Source: Roseiflexus sp. RS-1 (lineage in GTDB: Bacteria; Chloroflexota; Chloroflexia; Chloroflexales; Roseiflexaceae). From it: a stretch of DNA of 64,000 nucleotides. The stretch is taken from contig NC_009523.1 in the NCBI RefSeq assembly GCF_000016665.1, forward strand, positions 4,959,501 to 5,023,500, given 5' to 3'. Below the pieces are notes generated by a model. It saw only the letters and a list, made by a program, of their open reading frames with translations. It was not told the origin of the DNA and searched no databases. Position numbers and translations under genes: made by a program. Shown one piece after another: positions 34,461 through 41,874 of the stretch; positions within the stretch are counted from its first letter, which is position 1; every line of letters begins with the position of its first letter.

Positions 34461-36408
34461 TCAGATGCAATCGACCTTTTCGCCGGATACCTCACGGATT
34501 GCGGAGAGAGCGGCGCATCGGCGCACGCCGCTCGCCGCTTTTTTGTTTCTGCTCGCGCTCTACCTGCTGACGGCGAGCGGTCATCTCTATTCGCCCGACG
34601 AAGAGGCGATGTACTATGTGACACGCGGACTGGCGACACGCGGCGACATCGCTATCGAGGGGGACGATCTCGTGCCGATGCCGTTGCGGGAAGGGCGCGA
34701 TGGACGCATGGTTTCGCCGTATGGCATCCTTCCTTCGCTGGCGGCGTTGCCATTCTTCGCCCTCGGCGCGCTGCTGGCTGGCGGTGCGTCGGTCGAGGTC
34801 TACGAGTACCTCACCCGTTTCACGGTCAGTCTGCTGAATGCACCGGTGACTGCTGCTACCGGTGCGGTTCTGTTCTCATGTGTGGTATCTCTGGGGTATG
34901 GCAGGCGGGCAGCATGGCTGGCAGCGGGTGCGTTCGGCGTGGCGAGCCTGGCGTGGCCCTATGCCCGCACCTTCTTCTCCGAGCCACTGGCGGGACTCCT
35001 GCTGATCCTGGCGGTCGAACGGGCGTACAGCGCGTCCGTGCGTCACAACCGACGAGCGCTGCTGATCTCCGGCGTTGCGACCGGTTTGCTGCTCGTCACG
35101 CGCATCGCTGCGCTGGTTGCTGTGCCGTTTTTGATGTTGTATGTGGCGGCAGCAACGGTTTCCTGCCCGGGTGCGTCGCGTGGAATGGTGGAGCGACTCC
35201 GTGTGATGGCGGCGCACCTGGGTCTGTGGAGTTTGGGGTTGGTTCCCGGTGTGGCGCTGGTTATCGGCTACAATCTGGCGCGCTTTGGTGTACCGCTGGC
35301 GAGCGGCTATGGCGATGAAGCGAGCGCTTTTACCACACCGCTGCTGACTGGATTGACCGGGTTGTTGCTCAGTCCTGGCAAAAGCCTGTTCCTGTACGCG
35401 CCGGTTGCGGCGCTGGCGCTGGCGGGCGCGCCGTTGCTGTGGCAGCGCTGGCGTCTGGAAACAGCGCTGCTGCTGCTGCTGGTCATTGTGCATGTGGTGC
35501 TGTATGCGCGCTGGCATGCCTGGGATGGCGGCGGGGTTTGGGGACCCCGATTGCTGCTGCCGATCGTGCCGTTGTTGGCGGTGCTGGCAACGCCGGTGTT
35601 CGAGCGCGCAGCCGCAGGTGGCGGCATCGGGATACGCCTTATCGTCAGCGCGATCCTGGTGTTTGGAACAATCAATGCACTGGCAGGCGTTCTCGTCAAC
35701 CCGGCGATCTACCTCAATATGGAGATTCCGCACCGCCGGATCTATTTCGAGGCGGCACACTCGCCATTGCTGGCGCACTGGCGCATTGCGGCGGAACGCT
35801 GGCAGGCGCGGTATGGCGGCGGGCAATGCGTGATCGGCGACGGGTTTTACTTCCCGGAGATGCGCGATGCGCTACTGCCGCGCATGACCGGCGCATACGG
35901 AACACTATCCTGCCGGAGCGACAGACCGACACTGCTCACACTCCGCATCAACGATGATCGTCCGACCGGCGCGCCGCCGGGTAACCCGACGCTCGACATC
36001 GCCGGTCGTCAGGTTGCGTTGCGTGATGGCCAGGGAAGCCTGTTCTATGTGCTTGCACCGCCGGGCGCACTGCTGGTACTGCGGGCGCAGCCGTTTGTGC
36101 AGACGATACCGGGAACGGAGCGGCAGCGAATGGTCGGGTTGCGGATCGATGCGATCACCGCCGTCGATGACCGTGGCATTCGATTGCCGCTCTCTGATGC
36201 AGCCATCGAACCGCCGCCGGCAAGTCCGCGCTACCGCTGGGGGTGGTATTTCGTTCCAACCGTTCGCCACACGACCGACCTGTGGATCGGGTATCTGCTG
36301 CGCAGCGAGATCGGTTTCATTCGTGCGCTGGCTGTCGCCGGGTTGCTGGTCAGTACGGCGCTGGCGGCAGGTGTGGCGGGGGGGAGGAGGTTGGGCGTTG
36401 AACGTTGA
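34444..36408 (+). CDS. Polytopic membrane protein, glycosyltransferase-like (PMT/ArnT type)
   Basis: A 654-residue protein (ATG 34444; ATG 34465 also possible) with about ten to eleven hydrophobic segments up to residue 420, then a soluble region, then one last segment near 625-650. The first extracytoplasmic loop has the acidic motif YSPDEEAMYYVTRGLA, like the Asp-Glu motif of lipid-carrier-dependent GT-C transferases. It probably transfers a sugar from a polyprenyl carrier to a protein or glycan outside the membrane. Its last codons run into GTTGAAC heptamer repeats, which encode the stop. Confidence 0.65.
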   Translation: MPVVNDQMQSTFSPDTSRIAERAAHRRTPLAAFLFLLALYLLTASGHLYSPDEEAMYYVTRGLATRGDIAIEGDDLVPMPLREGRDGRMVSPYGILPSLAALPFFALGALLAGGASVEVYEYLTRFTVSLLNAPVTAATGAVLFSCVVSLGYGRRAAWLAAGAFGVASLAWPYARTFFSEPLAGLLLILAVERAYSASVRHNRRALLISGVATGLLLVTRIAALVAVPFLMLYVAAATVSCPGASRGMVERLRVMAAHLGLWSLGLVPGVALVIGYNLARFGVPLASGYGDEASAFTTPLLTGLTGLLLSPGKSLFLYAPVAALALAGAPLLWQRWRLETALLLLLVIVHVVLYARWHAWDGGGVWGPRLLLPIVPLLAVLATPVFERAAAGGGIGIRLIVSAILVFGTINALAGVLVNPAIYLNMEIPHRRIYFEAAHSPLLAHWRIAAERWQARYGGGQCVIGDGFYFPEMRDALLPRMTGAYGTLSCRSDRPTLLTLRINDDRPTGAPPGNPTLDIAGRQVALRDGQGSLFYVLAPPGALLVLRAQPFVQTIPGTERQRMVGLRIDAITAVDDRGIRLPLSDAAIEPPPASPRYRWGWYFVPTVRHTTDLWIGYLLRSEIGFIRALAVAGLLVSTALAAGVAGGRRLGVER

Positions 36409-36507
36409 ACGTTGAACGTTGAACGTTGTAATGTTGGGCGTTGAACGTTGAACGTTGAACGTTGAACGTTGTAATGTTGGGCGTTGAACGTTGAACGTTG
36501 AACGTTG
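36396..36507. repeat. GTTGAAC heptamer repeats with a 35-bp supra-period
   Basis: Runs of GTTGAAC (about 3-4 units each) are separated by GTTGTAATGTTGGGC, giving a higher-order unit repeated three times. It starts inside the last codons of the membrane protein gene and ends 45 bp before the metzincin gene. Similar 7-bp arrays with other variants are at 18160-18200 and 57359-57490. Confidence 0.85.
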
Positions 36508-36551: not shown

Positions 36552-38600
36552 ATGCATCACCATACTATGCTGGCGCTGATCCTGGTGCTGCTGCCCGTAT
36601 TCCTGGCAACGCACGACTATCCGGCAGCGCGCGCCGATCTGTCGTCTCCTTCGTCGGACAGGCGAGTCTATCTGCCGCTGATTACGCGCCCTGCGACGAT
36701 CGATCTCGTTCTCAATCAGGTCGAGATAACCCAGTCGGTGCAGAATAGCAGCAACACTGTGCCGATGGTTGCGGGTCGTCCAACAGTAGCGCGCGTGTAT
36801 GTAACCGTATCCGGCGTTACGGAAGCGTCTAACGTGATTGTTGAAGCTTCAGCATCGCGCAACGGCATTCCCCTGCCCGGCTCGCCGCGCCGCTCGGATC
36901 CACGCACGGTGACAACCGGTGTGTCGCGTGGAAACTATGCCAGCAGTTTCAACCTGGCTTTGCCCGCTGAATGGTTGTCGGGCAATGTGCGACTCAGCAT
37001 CGTCGTTGATCCCGACAATCGGATCACCGAAGTGAACGAGACCAACAATAGTCTGACGCAGACGCTGGAGTTTCTCGCCGTACCGCGCCTCGATCTCACG
37101 ATTGTGCCGGTTCAGTACACCCACACCCCCAACGGGCGCACCTACCCGGCGCCGACCCGCGACACTGTGAGCGATTGGGTGATGCGCGCCTATCCCATCC
37201 CTGGCATCAACGTTCGACTGCGTGCGCCGATTTCCTTCACCGGTGATTTGCGGAGCGGCAATGAATGGGAACGTCTGCTCGATCTGATAACGGATGTCAA
37301 ATTGAGCGACGGTGCACCGTCTTCGCGGGTCTACTACGGCTTGATACCGATCGCAAATGGGAGTGATCGCTGGTTCAGCAGCGGGATCGCCGGGATCGGG
37401 TGGGTCGGGTTGCGTGCATCGGTGGGGTTGGATCTGACGGGTTCCACCGATGCCGCCGGTCGCCTTGCCGCCCATGAGATCGGGCACAATCTGGGTCGCT
37501 TCCATGCGCCGTGCGGCGTCAGTGGCGATCCACGTCAACCTTTTCCATACTCGAATGCTTCGATCGGTCCGGATGTCTATGGTCTCGACATCAGCCGGGC
37601 GCGCGTCTGGAGTCCGGTTGCACCGGACAATACGAAGGACCTGATGAGTTATTGTCAACCGCAGTGGGTTTCGGATTTTACGTATCAGGGATTGCTGAAT
37701 AATCAGCGCATCTATGGCGCCAGCGTGATGCAGAGCGGCGCCGGGTATCTGGTGCGCGCCGTGCTGACGGACGACGGCACCACACTGGAACCGGTGTATG
37801 CGCTCGATGGCGTGACGCCGGATGCTCCACAGCGCGGCGAATACACGGTCGAACTGCGGGACGCTGCCGGAGCGTTGCTCGCTTCCCATACGGTCGCTGC
37901 TGTCGAAGCGGAAGGACCATACCGCTATGGCGAAGAGTCTGTCGCACATGATCATGATCATGGGCATATCTATCGTCGCATTACCACAGTTGTGCCGACG
38001 CCTGCTGGACCGGTTGCCAGTTTCCGTTTGATCCGCAATGGGGTGGTCATTGCGGAACGGGCAACTGACGCTGTGCCGCCAGCAGTCGCAGCCTCCGCAA
38101 CCATCGCCCGTAACAATGCGACATGGACGCTCTCCTGGTCGAATACATCTGTTCCGGCGCTGGTGCGTTACACCCACGACGGCAGACGCTGGACGACGCT
38201 GGGAGTCGATCTGGTCGGCGGACGTCTGTCGCTCAATCCGCAGATGCTTCCCGGCGGCGGGCATGGCAGGTTCGAGATCGTTCTGGCTGACAGCCGTGGC
38301 ATCATCGTTGTTGACGGAACACCGGCGGCTGCCGATGACGCCCAACCACAGGCGTGGATCGATGGTCCTGCGACGCTGCCGGTTGGTGCGCCGCTGCTGC
38401 TCTATGGAAGGGCGTCGGATCGCGATGATGGCGCGCTCGACGATCCTGCCTGGCAGGTCAATGGCGTATCGGTAGGAACGGGACAGACAGTATTTCTCGA
38501 CAATCTCGCGCCGGGCGAGTACCATGTTCGTCTGACGGCGCGCGATAGCGCAGGGAACGTGGGGTACGCCGATCATCTGGTTCGAGTCGAACAGCGTTGA
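36552..38600 (+). CDS. Secreted metzincin-type metalloprotease with CARDB and Ig-like domains
   Basis: A 682-residue protein with a signal peptide (MLALILVLLPVFLATHD). A CARDB-type beta domain follows at about 50-175 (the VDPDNRITEVNETNNSL motif is diagnostic). The zinc site HEIGHNLGRFHAP (HExxHxxGxxH) is at about 309-321, and the Met-turn is probably KDLMSYCQP near 360. The C-terminal region has two beta-sandwich domains, the last PKD-like (residues about 590-680). It should be a secreted protease. A His-rich stretch EESVAHDHDHGHIYRR near 463-478 could bind metal. Confidence 0.82.
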   Translation: MHHHTMLALILVLLPVFLATHDYPAARADLSSPSSDRRVYLPLITRPATIDLVLNQVEITQSVQNSSNTVPMVAGRPTVARVYVTVSGVTEASNVIVEASASRNGIPLPGSPRRSDPRTVTTGVSRGNYASSFNLALPAEWLSGNVRLSIVVDPDNRITEVNETNNSLTQTLEFLAVPRLDLTIVPVQYTHTPNGRTYPAPTRDTVSDWVMRAYPIPGINVRLRAPISFTGDLRSGNEWERLLDLITDVKLSDGAPSSRVYYGLIPIANGSDRWFSSGIAGIGWVGLRASVGLDLTGSTDAAGRLAAHEIGHNLGRFHAPCGVSGDPRQPFPYSNASIGPDVYGLDISRARVWSPVAPDNTKDLMSYCQPQWVSDFTYQGLLNNQRIYGASVMQSGAGYLVRAVLTDDGTTLEPVYALDGVTPDAPQRGEYTVELRDAAGALLASHTVAAVEAEGPYRYGEESVAHDHDHGHIYRRITTVVPTPAGPVASFRLIRNGVVIAERATDAVPPAVAASATIARNNATWTLSWSNTSVPALVRYTHDGRRWTTLGVDLVGGRLSLNPQMLPGGGHGRFEIVLADSRGIIVVDGTPAAADDAQPQAWIDGPATLPVGAPLLLYGRASDRDDGALDDPAWQVNGVSVGTGQTVFLDNLAPGEYHVRLTARDSAGNVGYADHLVRVEQR

Positions 38601-38632: not shown

Positions 38633-40678
38633 ATGTCTGCAACCTCCTTCGAGCAAGCGCTGGAACAGTACGGTGATGACCTGTACCGTCTGGCGGTGTT
38701 GTTGTCCCCCGATCAGGCGGCAGCGAATGCGCTGCTGGTGCGTACTGCCCGGCAGTTTCGCAATCACGTCGCTGCAGATGTGCTCACGATTGCAATCGCG
38801 CTGTACGAGCAATTGCCTGTGGAACGCGGTCTGTTCAGGCGAAGAGGCGTTCCTGCCTGGGTGACGGCAGGAATGGTGCGAACCGAAGATGCGCCGCTGG
38901 TTACAGCGATCGCACGCCTGCCGCGCGCGCAGCGGTTGGCGTTGGGGCTGGCAGCGCTGCACGCTTTCACGACCGACAATCTGGCGCCGATCGGGCAGGA
39001 GTGGCGTGTTCGGGTGCGAGACGCGATCAGGGCGCTGTTGCCAGTTCTCGATCCCGACCTTGATCCGACATTGTTCGATCCGGATCAGGCGCCGGAGGAG
39101 TGTCGTATGGCGCGGATGGCGTTGCTTCTCGATCCGACCGTCGCACAGACCAGTTCCGATGTGCGCGGGCATCTGGCGCTCTGCGAAACATGCCGTGCTG
39201 CGCTGCGCGAGTGGCGCCGCCTGACGGTGCAGGTGAACGAGGTGCTGCGCGATGCGTTGCGCCCGGTACGTCTGCCAGCGGACGTTGCAGCGCAAACAGT
39301 TGCAGCAGCGCACCCGGATACACGACCGCCGCTGCGTCGCCTGATGGAGAGTCAATGGACGCATCGCGCGATTCTGCCGCTGGCGGTGCTGCTTCTGACG
39401 ATGCTGATCGTCTGGCCCCGCGCGCGCGACGAACCTCCGCCGCCAGCCGTCTCGCCCTACTCGCTCCGCGAACTGGTCGAGCGTGCCGGAGAAACCCTGT
39501 ACACTCCCCCGCCGGGTGAAGGCGTCTGGCGGGGAAGCTACCTTATTCGCTGGACCTTCGCTGATCAGACCTATGCGAATCTACGGGGTGATCTCTGGAT
39601 CGATCGGGAGAATGGTCAGCATCGTATCCAGTTCGTGCATCAGCAGGGAGGCGGTCCCTACGAGTTTCAACTTGCTGATCGGCGTGGCCAGGCCTGGTAT
39701 GCGATAACGCCCGCCTATAGCGCGACAATAGGAGTTCCGCTTGATCGTGAGGATGTGTCCGGGGTTCGCTTTCCTGCTGATGCCGATCGGCGACATCGTT
39801 TGCTAAAGGCGCGACTGGAAAGCGGGGCATGGGCGTTGCCCCGACGTTACCTGGCACAGGCACGTGCTGCCGAATTGCAAAGTTGGGGACAACGCCAGAT
39901 GGATGATGGAACACAGGTGGAAGTTGTTGGGTTTCGCGGTGTCAGCCTGCCTGGCTTTCCACCCGATGCGCCGGATGCAGGCGACGCCGATGCCACGATC
40001 CTTCTCGCCATCGATAGTGCGACCGGACTGCTGCGCGAAATTCGTGAGTTGATCGGTCCCGTCGAAGGCGAACAGGTGAGTCGCACCGTCTGGGCATTCG
40101 ATGGCGGGCGTGAAGTCGATCCACGTGAAGAGACGCGAACGTTTGGCATCGCATTTGCCTGGAATGGTCAGGGAACCTTTCTCAGCCTGGACGACATTGC
40201 CACGCCGCATATCCCGCTGATCCCGTCCGAATCGGTCATTCCGCTTGATGATGCGATCGGCTCGTCCATCCTGTTGCCCGATCCGCCACCCGGTACGGTC
40301 GAGGCAGTTTTGGTGCGCGATGGGGAGACAGCCGGAGGGTACGTGGCGCTCTACCATGCGCCGGGGCGTCGATTAACGGTCAGATTGGTCCCGTTGTCCG
40401 ATGCGCAGGCGGACAGAACGTCCGATGACCCTGATGAAGAACGGATTATTGTGAAAAACTACGCTGTCGTGCTGCATCCCGGTCTCCAATGGCGCTACCG
40501 GGCGATTGTCGATCTTTCACCATACCAGGCGCGCTATGCGCTCCGGGTTGAGTCGCAGGGGTACACGCGCGCTGAATTGGTAGATGTGCTGACGTCGATC
40601 GATGTTGTGACGCCGGAGCGGTACGAGGAGCAGGCAACAATGTTTATTGCACAGGTGGACGGCGCAAAGCGTCGCTAA
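38633..40678 (+). CDS. Membrane protein joining sigma-like helices to an anti-sigma zinc finger
   Basis: A 681-residue protein. Residues 5-45 resemble a weak sigma-70 region 2 (FEQALEQYGDDLYRLAVLL), residues 88-120 a region-4-like stretch (IARLPRAQRLALGLAALHAF), then a zf-HC2/ZAS motif HLALCETC (H180, C184, C187). One membrane segment lies at 246-261, and about 400 residues lie outside, with MucB/RsiM-like beta structure (RWTFADQTYANLRGDLWIDR). It may be a fused, partly degenerate sigma/anti-sigma pair that senses envelope state. No separate ECF sigma gene is adjacent. Confidence 0.65.
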   Translation: MSATSFEQALEQYGDDLYRLAVLLSPDQAAANALLVRTARQFRNHVAADVLTIAIALYEQLPVERGLFRRRGVPAWVTAGMVRTEDAPLVTAIARLPRAQRLALGLAALHAFTTDNLAPIGQEWRVRVRDAIRALLPVLDPDLDPTLFDPDQAPEECRMARMALLLDPTVAQTSSDVRGHLALCETCRAALREWRRLTVQVNEVLRDALRPVRLPADVAAQTVAAAHPDTRPPLRRLMESQWTHRAILPLAVLLLTMLIVWPRARDEPPPPAVSPYSLRELVERAGETLYTPPPGEGVWRGSYLIRWTFADQTYANLRGDLWIDRENGQHRIQFVHQQGGGPYEFQLADRRGQAWYAITPAYSATIGVPLDREDVSGVRFPADADRRHRLLKARLESGAWALPRRYLAQARAAELQSWGQRQMDDGTQVEVVGFRGVSLPGFPPDAPDAGDADATILLAIDSATGLLREIRELIGPVEGEQVSRTVWAFDGGREVDPREETRTFGIAFAWNGQGTFLSLDDIATPHIPLIPSESVIPLDDAIGSSILLPDPPPGTVEAVLVRDGETAGGYVALYHAPGRRLTVRLVPLSDAQADRTSDDPDEERIIVKNYAVVLHPGLQWRYRAIVDLSPYQARYALRVESQGYTRAELVDVLTSIDVVTPERYEEQATMFIAQVDGAKRR

Positions 40679-41313: not shown

Positions 41314-41874
41314 TTATCCGAAAATGTGGGTGACCTGGAGGGTAATACCGGGCGCTGCCACAGACGTGATGCTGTCGCCCCGTCGATATTCCCGCCTGGT
41401 CAGATACTGGCACCCTATCGCCTGCGTGTATTGTACGACGATTTCCGCTTCCACATCCACGATCCAGGCTTCGCGAATACCGGCCTCCGCATACCGTGGG
41501 AGTTTTTCGTCCCGATCATAGTCAAGCGACGTATCTGCCACTTCTATCACGAAGAGGACCGCCTCTGGCGTGGGATGGTGCTGCGCGTAATAACTCGCGT
41601 CGTACCGCAGAATCGCAATGTCCGGTTCGGGTTCACTAACGTCATTGAGTTGGATCGGATCCTGGACACTGATCAGCATCAAGGTGCCCATATGGGGCAT
41701 CAACAAGGTGTTGAGGCGTTTCACGATCGCGGCATGCAATGGGACAACAGGACTCATACGCCGCACCTCTCCGTCGATCAGTTCCACCCGGTCATCTTCG
41801 GTCAGGATGCCCGCTTCCCGCATCCGATGATAGTCATCAACCGTGAACTGCCGACGCGCGATATGGATGGCCAT
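41314..41874 (-). CDS. Uma2-family (DUF820) PD-(D/E)XK protein
   Basis: A 186-residue protein with the Uma2 pattern: FTVDDYHRMREAGILTEDDR, VELIDGEVRRMSP, EPEPDIAIL (Asp), VLFVIEVADTSLDYD (the ExxD/S region) and KLPRYAEAGIREAWIVDV. The putative nuclease triad is D in EPDIA, E in VIEV and the following Lys KLPRYA. Members are abundant in Chloroflexota and cyanobacteria and are thought to be endonuclease-like, with no firm role. Confidence 0.88.
   Translation of the reverse strand: MAIHIARRQFTVDDYHRMREAGILTEDDRVELIDGEVRRMSPVVPLHAAIVKRLNTLLMPHMGTLMLISVQDPIQLNDVSEPEPDIAILRYDASYYAQHHPTPEAVLFVIEVADTSLDYDRDEKLPRYAEAGIREAWIVDVEAEIVVQYTQAIGCQYLTRREYRRGDSITSVAAPGITLQVTHIFG

Follow-up and report, generated by a model that had tools for sequence, protein, structure and literature searches.

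The question raised by this locus is how a single membrane protein came to contain both sigma-like helices and an anti-sigma zinc finger, and what the sigma-like part could be doing there. The gene lies in a 64,000-nucleotide stretch of the genome of Roseiflexus sp. RS-1 (NC_009523.1, positions 4,959,501 to 5,023,500, forward strand), which we call the window and to whose first letter all coordinates refer. A preliminary description of this DNA offered two readings, namely a fusion whose sigma part is degenerate and acts as a decoy, or an anti-sigma factor whose N-terminus mimics sigma in order to bind RNA polymerase.

Arrangement and distribution of the fusion protein

The gene and its parts, together with its upstream neighbor, are as follows.

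36552..38600, + strand: upstream gene whose product matches Peptidase M66, with 32 bp between its end and the fusion gene
38633..40678, + strand: fusion gene encoding a 681-aa protein, open reading frame uninterrupted from the ATG at 38633 to the stop codon at 40676-40678
38645..38812, + strand: sigma2-like part, about aa 5-60, in which D, Q, E and F of region 2.2 are not retained
38882..39052, + strand: sigma4-like part, aa 84-140, with the LPxxQR motif retained and a less basic recognition helix
39101..39196, + strand: zinc anti-sigma core (class I ASD, ZAS), aa 157-188, C157-x22-H180-x3-C184-x2-C187
39368..39424, + strand: single membrane segment predicted from hydropathy, aa 246-264
39425..40675, + strand: outer domain, aa 265-681, without a convincing known family or solved relative

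That one 681-aa chain holds a region-2-like stretch, a region-4-like stretch, the motif HLALCETC (aa 180-187), a membrane segment and a large outer domain had been noticed in the preliminary description, and this is borne out by the open reading frame, the family profiles and hydropathy. The parts follow one another in the order sigma2-like, sigma4-like, zinc anti-sigma, membrane segment and outer domain, and C157 supplies the fourth zinc ligand. The membrane segment is found at the equivalent position in all 21 members of an alignment made from 21 of 30 loci, four of which show a weaker second candidate. Against Pfam the outer domain gave only two single-member matches, both unconvincing (E 0.086 and 0.27), and it matched no solved structure. 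Searches of Pfam and NCBIfam found no response regulator receiver domain in the 681-aa protein, and scans for promoters and terminators stayed at chance level.

By whole-protein search the fusion protein is present as a single copy in its own genome (a single contig of 5,801,598 bp), relatives were found in 42 of the 82 genomes of the order Chloroflexales at E <= 0.001, and viral contigs yielded none. The main alignment holds 25 members taken from 30 loci of these 42 genomes; five loci (L008, L011, L013, L017 and L020) were omitted as shortened, frame-broken, masked or missing the N-terminus. When a profile built from the first 200 aa of the 25 members was run against 400 Chloroflexota genomes, with up to seven candidates scored in each, at least 266 had a match, and among the matches listed those outside the order are mostly open frames of the size of a stand-alone sigma factor (ten loci read). 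The outer domain, with up to four candidates scored in each genome, occurs in at least 27 of the 400, every one of them within the same order. Mean pairwise identity is 0.47 in the anti-sigma part and 0.48 in the first part of the outer domain, 0.38 and 0.40 in the two sigma parts, and 0.35 in the last part of the outer domain.

Homology of the two cytoplasmic halves

For the sigma-like part, the single protein and its family give different results. The whole 681-aa protein has zero matches in Pfam or NCBIfam. The N-terminal 206 aa gave only a chance-level chorismate lyase match in Pfam (0.036) and weak matches in NCBIfam to the SigE family (0.0042) and antisigmaE (0.075), and a profile built from 11 ECF sigma factors of the same genome assigned the protein just 2.5 bits. 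An HMM search with sigma models was among the checks proposed for the sigma likeness, with background scores together with a different predicted fold counting against it; this single sequence does score nearly at background, but its family does not. Pfam Sigma70_r4_2 matches 10 of the 25 members (best 1.9e-5) and NCBIfam SigE-fam matches 13 (best 4.7e-6), whereas Pfam Sigma70_r2 matches none.

When the profile of the 25 members was searched against the PDB, ECF sigma factors ranked first: the top match was a SigE chain (9m9d, E 2.3e-6, profile positions 7-139), followed by SigL (3.7e-6) and SigH (4.4e-5), and both sigma regions were covered in 8 of the best 10 rows. Two of the 27 rows up to E 10 were plainly unrelated (E 0.13 and 0.16). 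The matches include the sigma-like domain of PhyR (2lfw, E 0.017) and a response-regulator chain that is probably of the PhyR type (9cb6, positions 7-142, E 7.1e-5). Profile-profile alignment with hhalign between the family and the 11 ECF sigma factors of the same genome gave a probability of 96.9 and a score of 67.6 over 134 collinear columns, as against scores of 12.3 and 12.5 for reversed controls and at most 18.9 for 60 shuffles. Both the PDB profile search and hhalign thus show that the family is homologous to sigma region 2 and, after it, to sigma region 4. Structure prediction was of low confidence, with AlphaFold2 models built from five sequences only (whole protein, mean pLDDT 44 and pTM 0.31; aa 1-218, mean pLDDT 60 and pTM 0.51). 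With the low-confidence model of aa 1-218, Foldseek found nothing at E <= 0.001, and neither Foldseek nor VIA-align had a sigma chain among the matches listed.

The anti-sigma half is also recognized in the family. The four zinc ligands C157, H180, C184 and C187 are invariant in all 25 aligned members, which gives the Hx3Cx2C motif with an upstream cysteine that defines class I zinc anti-sigma factors (ASDI/ZAS). NCBIfam antisigmaE matches every one of the 25 (best 6.6e-6) and Pfam zf-HC2 matches 12 (best 1.7e-5). Aligned by hhalign with six ZAS domains, those among ten loci whose sequence has the C-H-C-C pattern, a motif-based choice that favors a match, the anti-sigma part reached a probability of 95.6 and a score of 44.6, with 60 shuffles at or below 17.2.

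Degeneracy and constraint of the sigma-like part

For comparison we used 11 of the 18 places in the genome that match Sigma70_r2, omitting six long ones of the primary type (L035-L039 and L048) and one that missed the cut-off (L052). The family does not show the conserved region 2.2 pattern DxxQExF: its D, Q, E and F are present in 0, 2, 0 and 0 of the 25 members, as against 8, 9, 7 and 11 of the 11 ECF sigma factors of the same genome. E116, found in 10 of these 11, is found in a single family member. At position 129 the basic character is retained, with K in 10 of the 11 ECF sigma factors and R in 19 of the 25 members. The last sigma4 helix has on average 1.9 K/R residues in the family versus 3.7 in the ECF sigma factors, and 1.8 D/E residues versus 0.6. 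The tryptophan of FxxWL, present in all 11, has by eye no counterpart in the aligned LLARL-like helix of the family; a W occurs within residues 43-62 in six of the 25 members and, also judged by eye, never in that helix. The LPxxQR motif and the hydrophobic core are retained.

In sigma70, Q406 and E407 are core-binding residues. PMC7406223 places the contact with the beta' clamp helices in regions 2.1 and 2.2, so that changed positions of the family lie in the polymerase face; it also states that helix 4 of class I anti-sigma factors binds this face and that helix 1 binds sigma4. Conserved residues of the polymerase face are thus missing from the sigma-like domain, a feature of PhyR-type sigma mimics, judged here from the residues of the family alone. 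The loss of conserved ECF residues in a region that binds the beta' clamp disfavors the suggestion of an N-terminus that imitates sigma in order to engage RNA polymerase. Fusion and degeneracy, as proposed in the other suggestion, gain support from the family profiles, from hhalign and from this same loss of region 2.2 residues.

Across nine pairs of family members, not all of them independent, dN/dS ranged from 0.09 to 0.72 in the sigma2-like part, from 0 to 0.56 in the sigma4-like part and from 0.10 to 0.34 in the anti-sigma part. For the sigma parts the values were mostly 0.1-0.4, similar to those of the anti-sigma part, and below 0.45 in all but one of the nine pairs; the high pair, L016-L021, had 0.72 in the sigma2-like part and 0.56 in the sigma4-like part. 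A partial pair with few changes, L001-L008, had 0.20 and 0.80, respectively. As dN/dS is mostly low in these pairs, we conclude with moderate confidence that the sigma part is mostly under purifying selection and is not simply decaying.

Probable origin by fusion of an ECF sigma gene and an anti-sigma gene

Some of the phylum-wide matches of the N-terminal profile ran across a stop codon. Among 17 loci that we read, four (L091, L095, L103 and L105) have an ECF gene and, next after it, a zinc-motif gene, with a gap of at most 10 bp or an overlap of a few bases; in L093 and L094, which belong to the Chloroflexales, the sigma gene is overlapped by a long open reading frame without a zinc motif. 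Further long fused proteins of this order have a zinc motif in L098 and L100, and there are others with a sigma-like N-terminus and without HxxxCxxC in L096, L097 and L101. A 505-aa protein from the Chloroflexota (L092:1629-3143) fuses a normal-looking ECF sigma factor to a zinc anti-sigma domain and scores above the Pfam cut-offs of Sigma70_r2, r4_2 and zf-HC2, and L104 also appears by eye to be a fusion with a normal-looking sigma part. As L092 and L104 keep a normal-looking sigma factor, fusion alone does not imply a dead one. In L107:1761-3999, from another family, a sigma-like gene overlaps an open reading frame whose predicted membrane protein has a von-Willebrand-like (VWA-like) part, and L099, from a different genus of the same family as L107, has a similar pair in one chain, whose region 2.2 also looks altered by eye.

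The order of the parts, the homology of both halves, the loss of residues that ECF sigma factors conserve in the regions binding polymerase and promoter, the intact zinc site and the mostly purifying selection can all be read from the sequence, and together they argue for descent from a fused pair. The safest statement is that the protein is a fused descendant of an ECF sigma/class I anti-sigma pair whose sigma half is without the signature of transcription.

Gene neighborhood and the search for a partner sigma factor

The protein encoded at 36552-38600 matches Peptidase M66 (4.4e-8) and has CARDB and PKD-like matches, and this gene is possibly co-transcribed with the fusion gene. A homologue of the M66 protein is also found upstream in three regions of the same family (L110, L111 and L112); L113 and L114 have other upstream neighbors, and the L109 region ends too early to show the upstream gene. 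The window also has, at 36390-36507, a tandem 7-mer, CGTTGAA, with 15.7 copies at 36396-36507, which is also readable as a 43-bp unit. Downstream of the fusion gene, at 41314-41874 on the minus strand, a 186-aa protein matches the PADLOC candidate defense family PDC-S03 (1.2e-18); we take it to resemble a Uma2-type protein.

The search for a partner sigma gene, which the preliminary description had proposed, came back empty in the neighborhoods. An ECF profile found no stand-alone ECF gene among 357 called open reading frames in 21 neighborhoods, in one of which (L115) the target frame itself was uncalled, and its matches there were four of the fusion proteins themselves. The adjacent cognate ECF gene that is typical of class I anti-sigma factors, if not universal, was thus not detected in these 21 neighborhoods, and the partner sigma factor, if there is one, is therefore encoded elsewhere. 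Among the 11 ECF sigma factors of the same genome that were compared, five have no zinc-motif gene just downstream, in a search for zinc anti-sigma factors only. Beyond these neighborhoods, one genus has in five of its genomes (G006, G007, G009, G011 and G013) an ECF gene on the same strand as the fusion gene and 11-16 kb ahead of it (L163, L164, L165, L166 and L167), followed, as read by eye, by a non-zinc anti-sigma-like frame and a large response-regulator frame. We considered this gene as the missing partner and rejected it, as it has its own non-zinc anti-sigma-like frame directly after it in all five genomes.

A gene for a MoxR-like AAA+ ATPase is located on the same strand, at most two called frames upstream, in 10 of 13 regions of the other main family and in 10 of 20 neighborhoods overall with a called target (L116, L118, L120, L121, L122, L123, L125, L126, L127 and L128). 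In L116, L118, L127 and L128 it overlaps the fusion gene or comes to within about 15 bp of it, depending on the start codons chosen, and one MoxR-like gene was confirmed in Pfam (AAA_3, 1.7e-67). None of the seven neighborhoods of the window's own family has MoxR as a neighbor, and the closest MoxR relative in the window genome is at another locus. As the link is missing beside the gene in the window's own family, we demoted it as a key to function.

Proposed role of the pseudo-sigma and alternative explanations

A decoy role for the sigma part would fit the anatomy of the protein, and we suggest that an outer signal may switch the partner of the anti-sigma domain, for which the pseudo-sigma would serve as an internal ligand, an explanation to which we give a little less than an even chance. 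An ECF sigma gene and an adjacent class I (zinc) anti-sigma gene would have merged into one reading frame, and the sigma part, now a pseudo-sigma, would have ceased to drive transcription. It would be bound by the anti-sigma domain on the inner side of the membrane, much as the sigma-like domain of PhyR is bound by NepR. A change perceived through the outer domain could then loosen this clasp or lead to its proteolysis, upon which the anti-sigma domain would gain or lose a real sigma factor from elsewhere in the genome, so that partner switching would take place in one chain. The high dN/dS of some pairs, the related fusions of the order without HxxxCxxC, the fusions with a normal-looking sigma part (L092 and L104) and the empty search for a partner sigma factor count against the internal-ligand model, as does the fact that the structural models, all of low confidence, do not credibly place the sigma part against the anti-sigma domain.

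Could the sigma part instead still be a working, very divergent ECF sigma factor, which its own anti-sigma domain keeps at the membrane until it is freed by regulated proteolysis like IutY or, as has been proposed, SCO4117? The part order is that of ECF48, ECF52, ECF53 and IutY (PMC8999054, PMC5826349), and both the mostly purifying selection on the sigma parts and the retained LPxxQR motif and hydrophobic core would be expected of such a factor. We consider it unlikely nevertheless, with the region 2.2 residues gone, no tryptophan in the helix aligned with FxxWL, a less basic recognition helix and not one member matched by Pfam Sigma70_r2. That the sigma likeness arose by chance in an alanine-rich helical region would agree with the lack of a Pfam sigma match and the mere 2.5 bits obtained for the single protein, but ECF sigma factors lead the PDB matches of the family profile, and the reversed and shuffled controls fall far below the profile-profile score, so that we regard chance as hardly credible.

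Another explanation keeps the protein as a membrane anti-sigma factor for a sigma factor encoded elsewhere, with the sigma-like part as an inherited structural or dimerisation element and not an internal ligand. It draws on the invariant zinc site, on the five ECF sigma factors without a zinc-motif gene just downstream, and on the higher identity of the anti-sigma part and the early outer domain compared with the sigma parts. We find it rather doubtful, as the sigma parts are still mostly constrained and as, to our knowledge, ordinary anti-sigma factors carry no such sigma-like part. If no link to transcription were left at all, both cytoplasmic halves could have been recruited to another membrane function, for example together with the adjoining MoxR ATPase, which is nearly touching or overlapping in four of the ten neighborhoods that have it upstream; the related fusions without a zinc motif would also fit. 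Set against the invariant zinc ligands and the absence of a MoxR neighbor throughout the window's own family, this seems quite improbable to us.

Returning to the pseudo-sigma as an internal ligand, we extend the explanation to the order only tentatively, as a possibility that we would not rely upon: the Chloroflexales would have a class of single-chain membrane receptors that carry a dead sigma factor as an internal ligand for the anti-sigma domain of the same chain, and the outer domain would set whether the anti-sigma domain is taken up by this mimic or is free for a real sigma factor. Such a class would amount to a PhyR-like partner switch within one transmembrane protein, born from the fusion of an ECF/anti-sigma gene pair. 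If this is true, a sigma factor can be retired from transcription and yet live on within its former inhibitor as a regulatory ligand that is conserved across a large part of a bacterial order. The family would then offer a compact, testable system for following how the sigma/anti-sigma contact evolves once the constraint from polymerase is gone, and a warning that domain order by itself does not make a fused ECF protein a sigma factor.

Comparison with known systems

An ECF sigma factor and its anti-sigma factor are normally two genes, as the preliminary description stated correctly; fused forms are, however, already known. Section 3.5 of PMC8999054 lists ECF48, ECF52 and ECF53 of the Actinobacteria and IutY (ECF243) as combining sigma, anti-sigma and membrane parts. 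The protein described here has this same layout of sigma part, anti-sigma part and membrane segment in a single chain. Our search of an open-access library found no report of a fused ECF/anti-sigma protein combined with a non-transcribing sigma mimic, and nothing on Roseiflexus ECF or anti-sigma factors, degenerate or pseudo-sigma factors, core binding by Q406/E407 or the conserved residues of region 2.2.

Like the fusion protein, ordinary class I (ASDI) zinc anti-sigma factors of the zf-HC2 type have the C-x22-H-x3-C-x2-C site, a membrane segment and an outer part; the fusion protein differs in having a sigma-like N-terminus of its own. ECF48, ECF52 and ECF53 come closer, as they have sigma part, zinc finger, membrane segment(s) and a large outer part in one chain (PMC8999054, PMC5826349); SCO4117 (PMC5826349) has a zinc finger, a membrane segment and a carbohydrate-binding part and acts as an activator. 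Their sigma part is recognizable as ECF, whereas the Chloroflexota fusion has lost the residues of region 2.2 and of the recognition helix; they belong to the Actinobacteria, and the protein described here belongs to the Chloroflexota and has an outer domain without a convincing known family. IutY of Pseudomonas putida (ECF243) likewise combines a sigma factor and a membrane anti-sigma factor in a single polypeptide (PMC8999054, PMC5411451). It becomes an active sigma factor after proteolysis, whereas the sigma part of the Chloroflexota protein looks inactive, judging by its residues, and its anti-sigma part belongs to the zinc class.

PhyR, of the general stress response of the Alphaproteobacteria, provides the other half of the comparison: its sigma-like domain antagonizes an anti-sigma factor instead of driving transcription. 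The fused ECF/anti-sigma layout and a non-transcribing sigma mimic are each already known separately, and the protein described here would join the two. PhyR is a soluble response regulator with a separate anti-sigma factor, whereas the candidate mimic of the Chloroflexota is fused to a zinc anti-sigma factor in the membrane.
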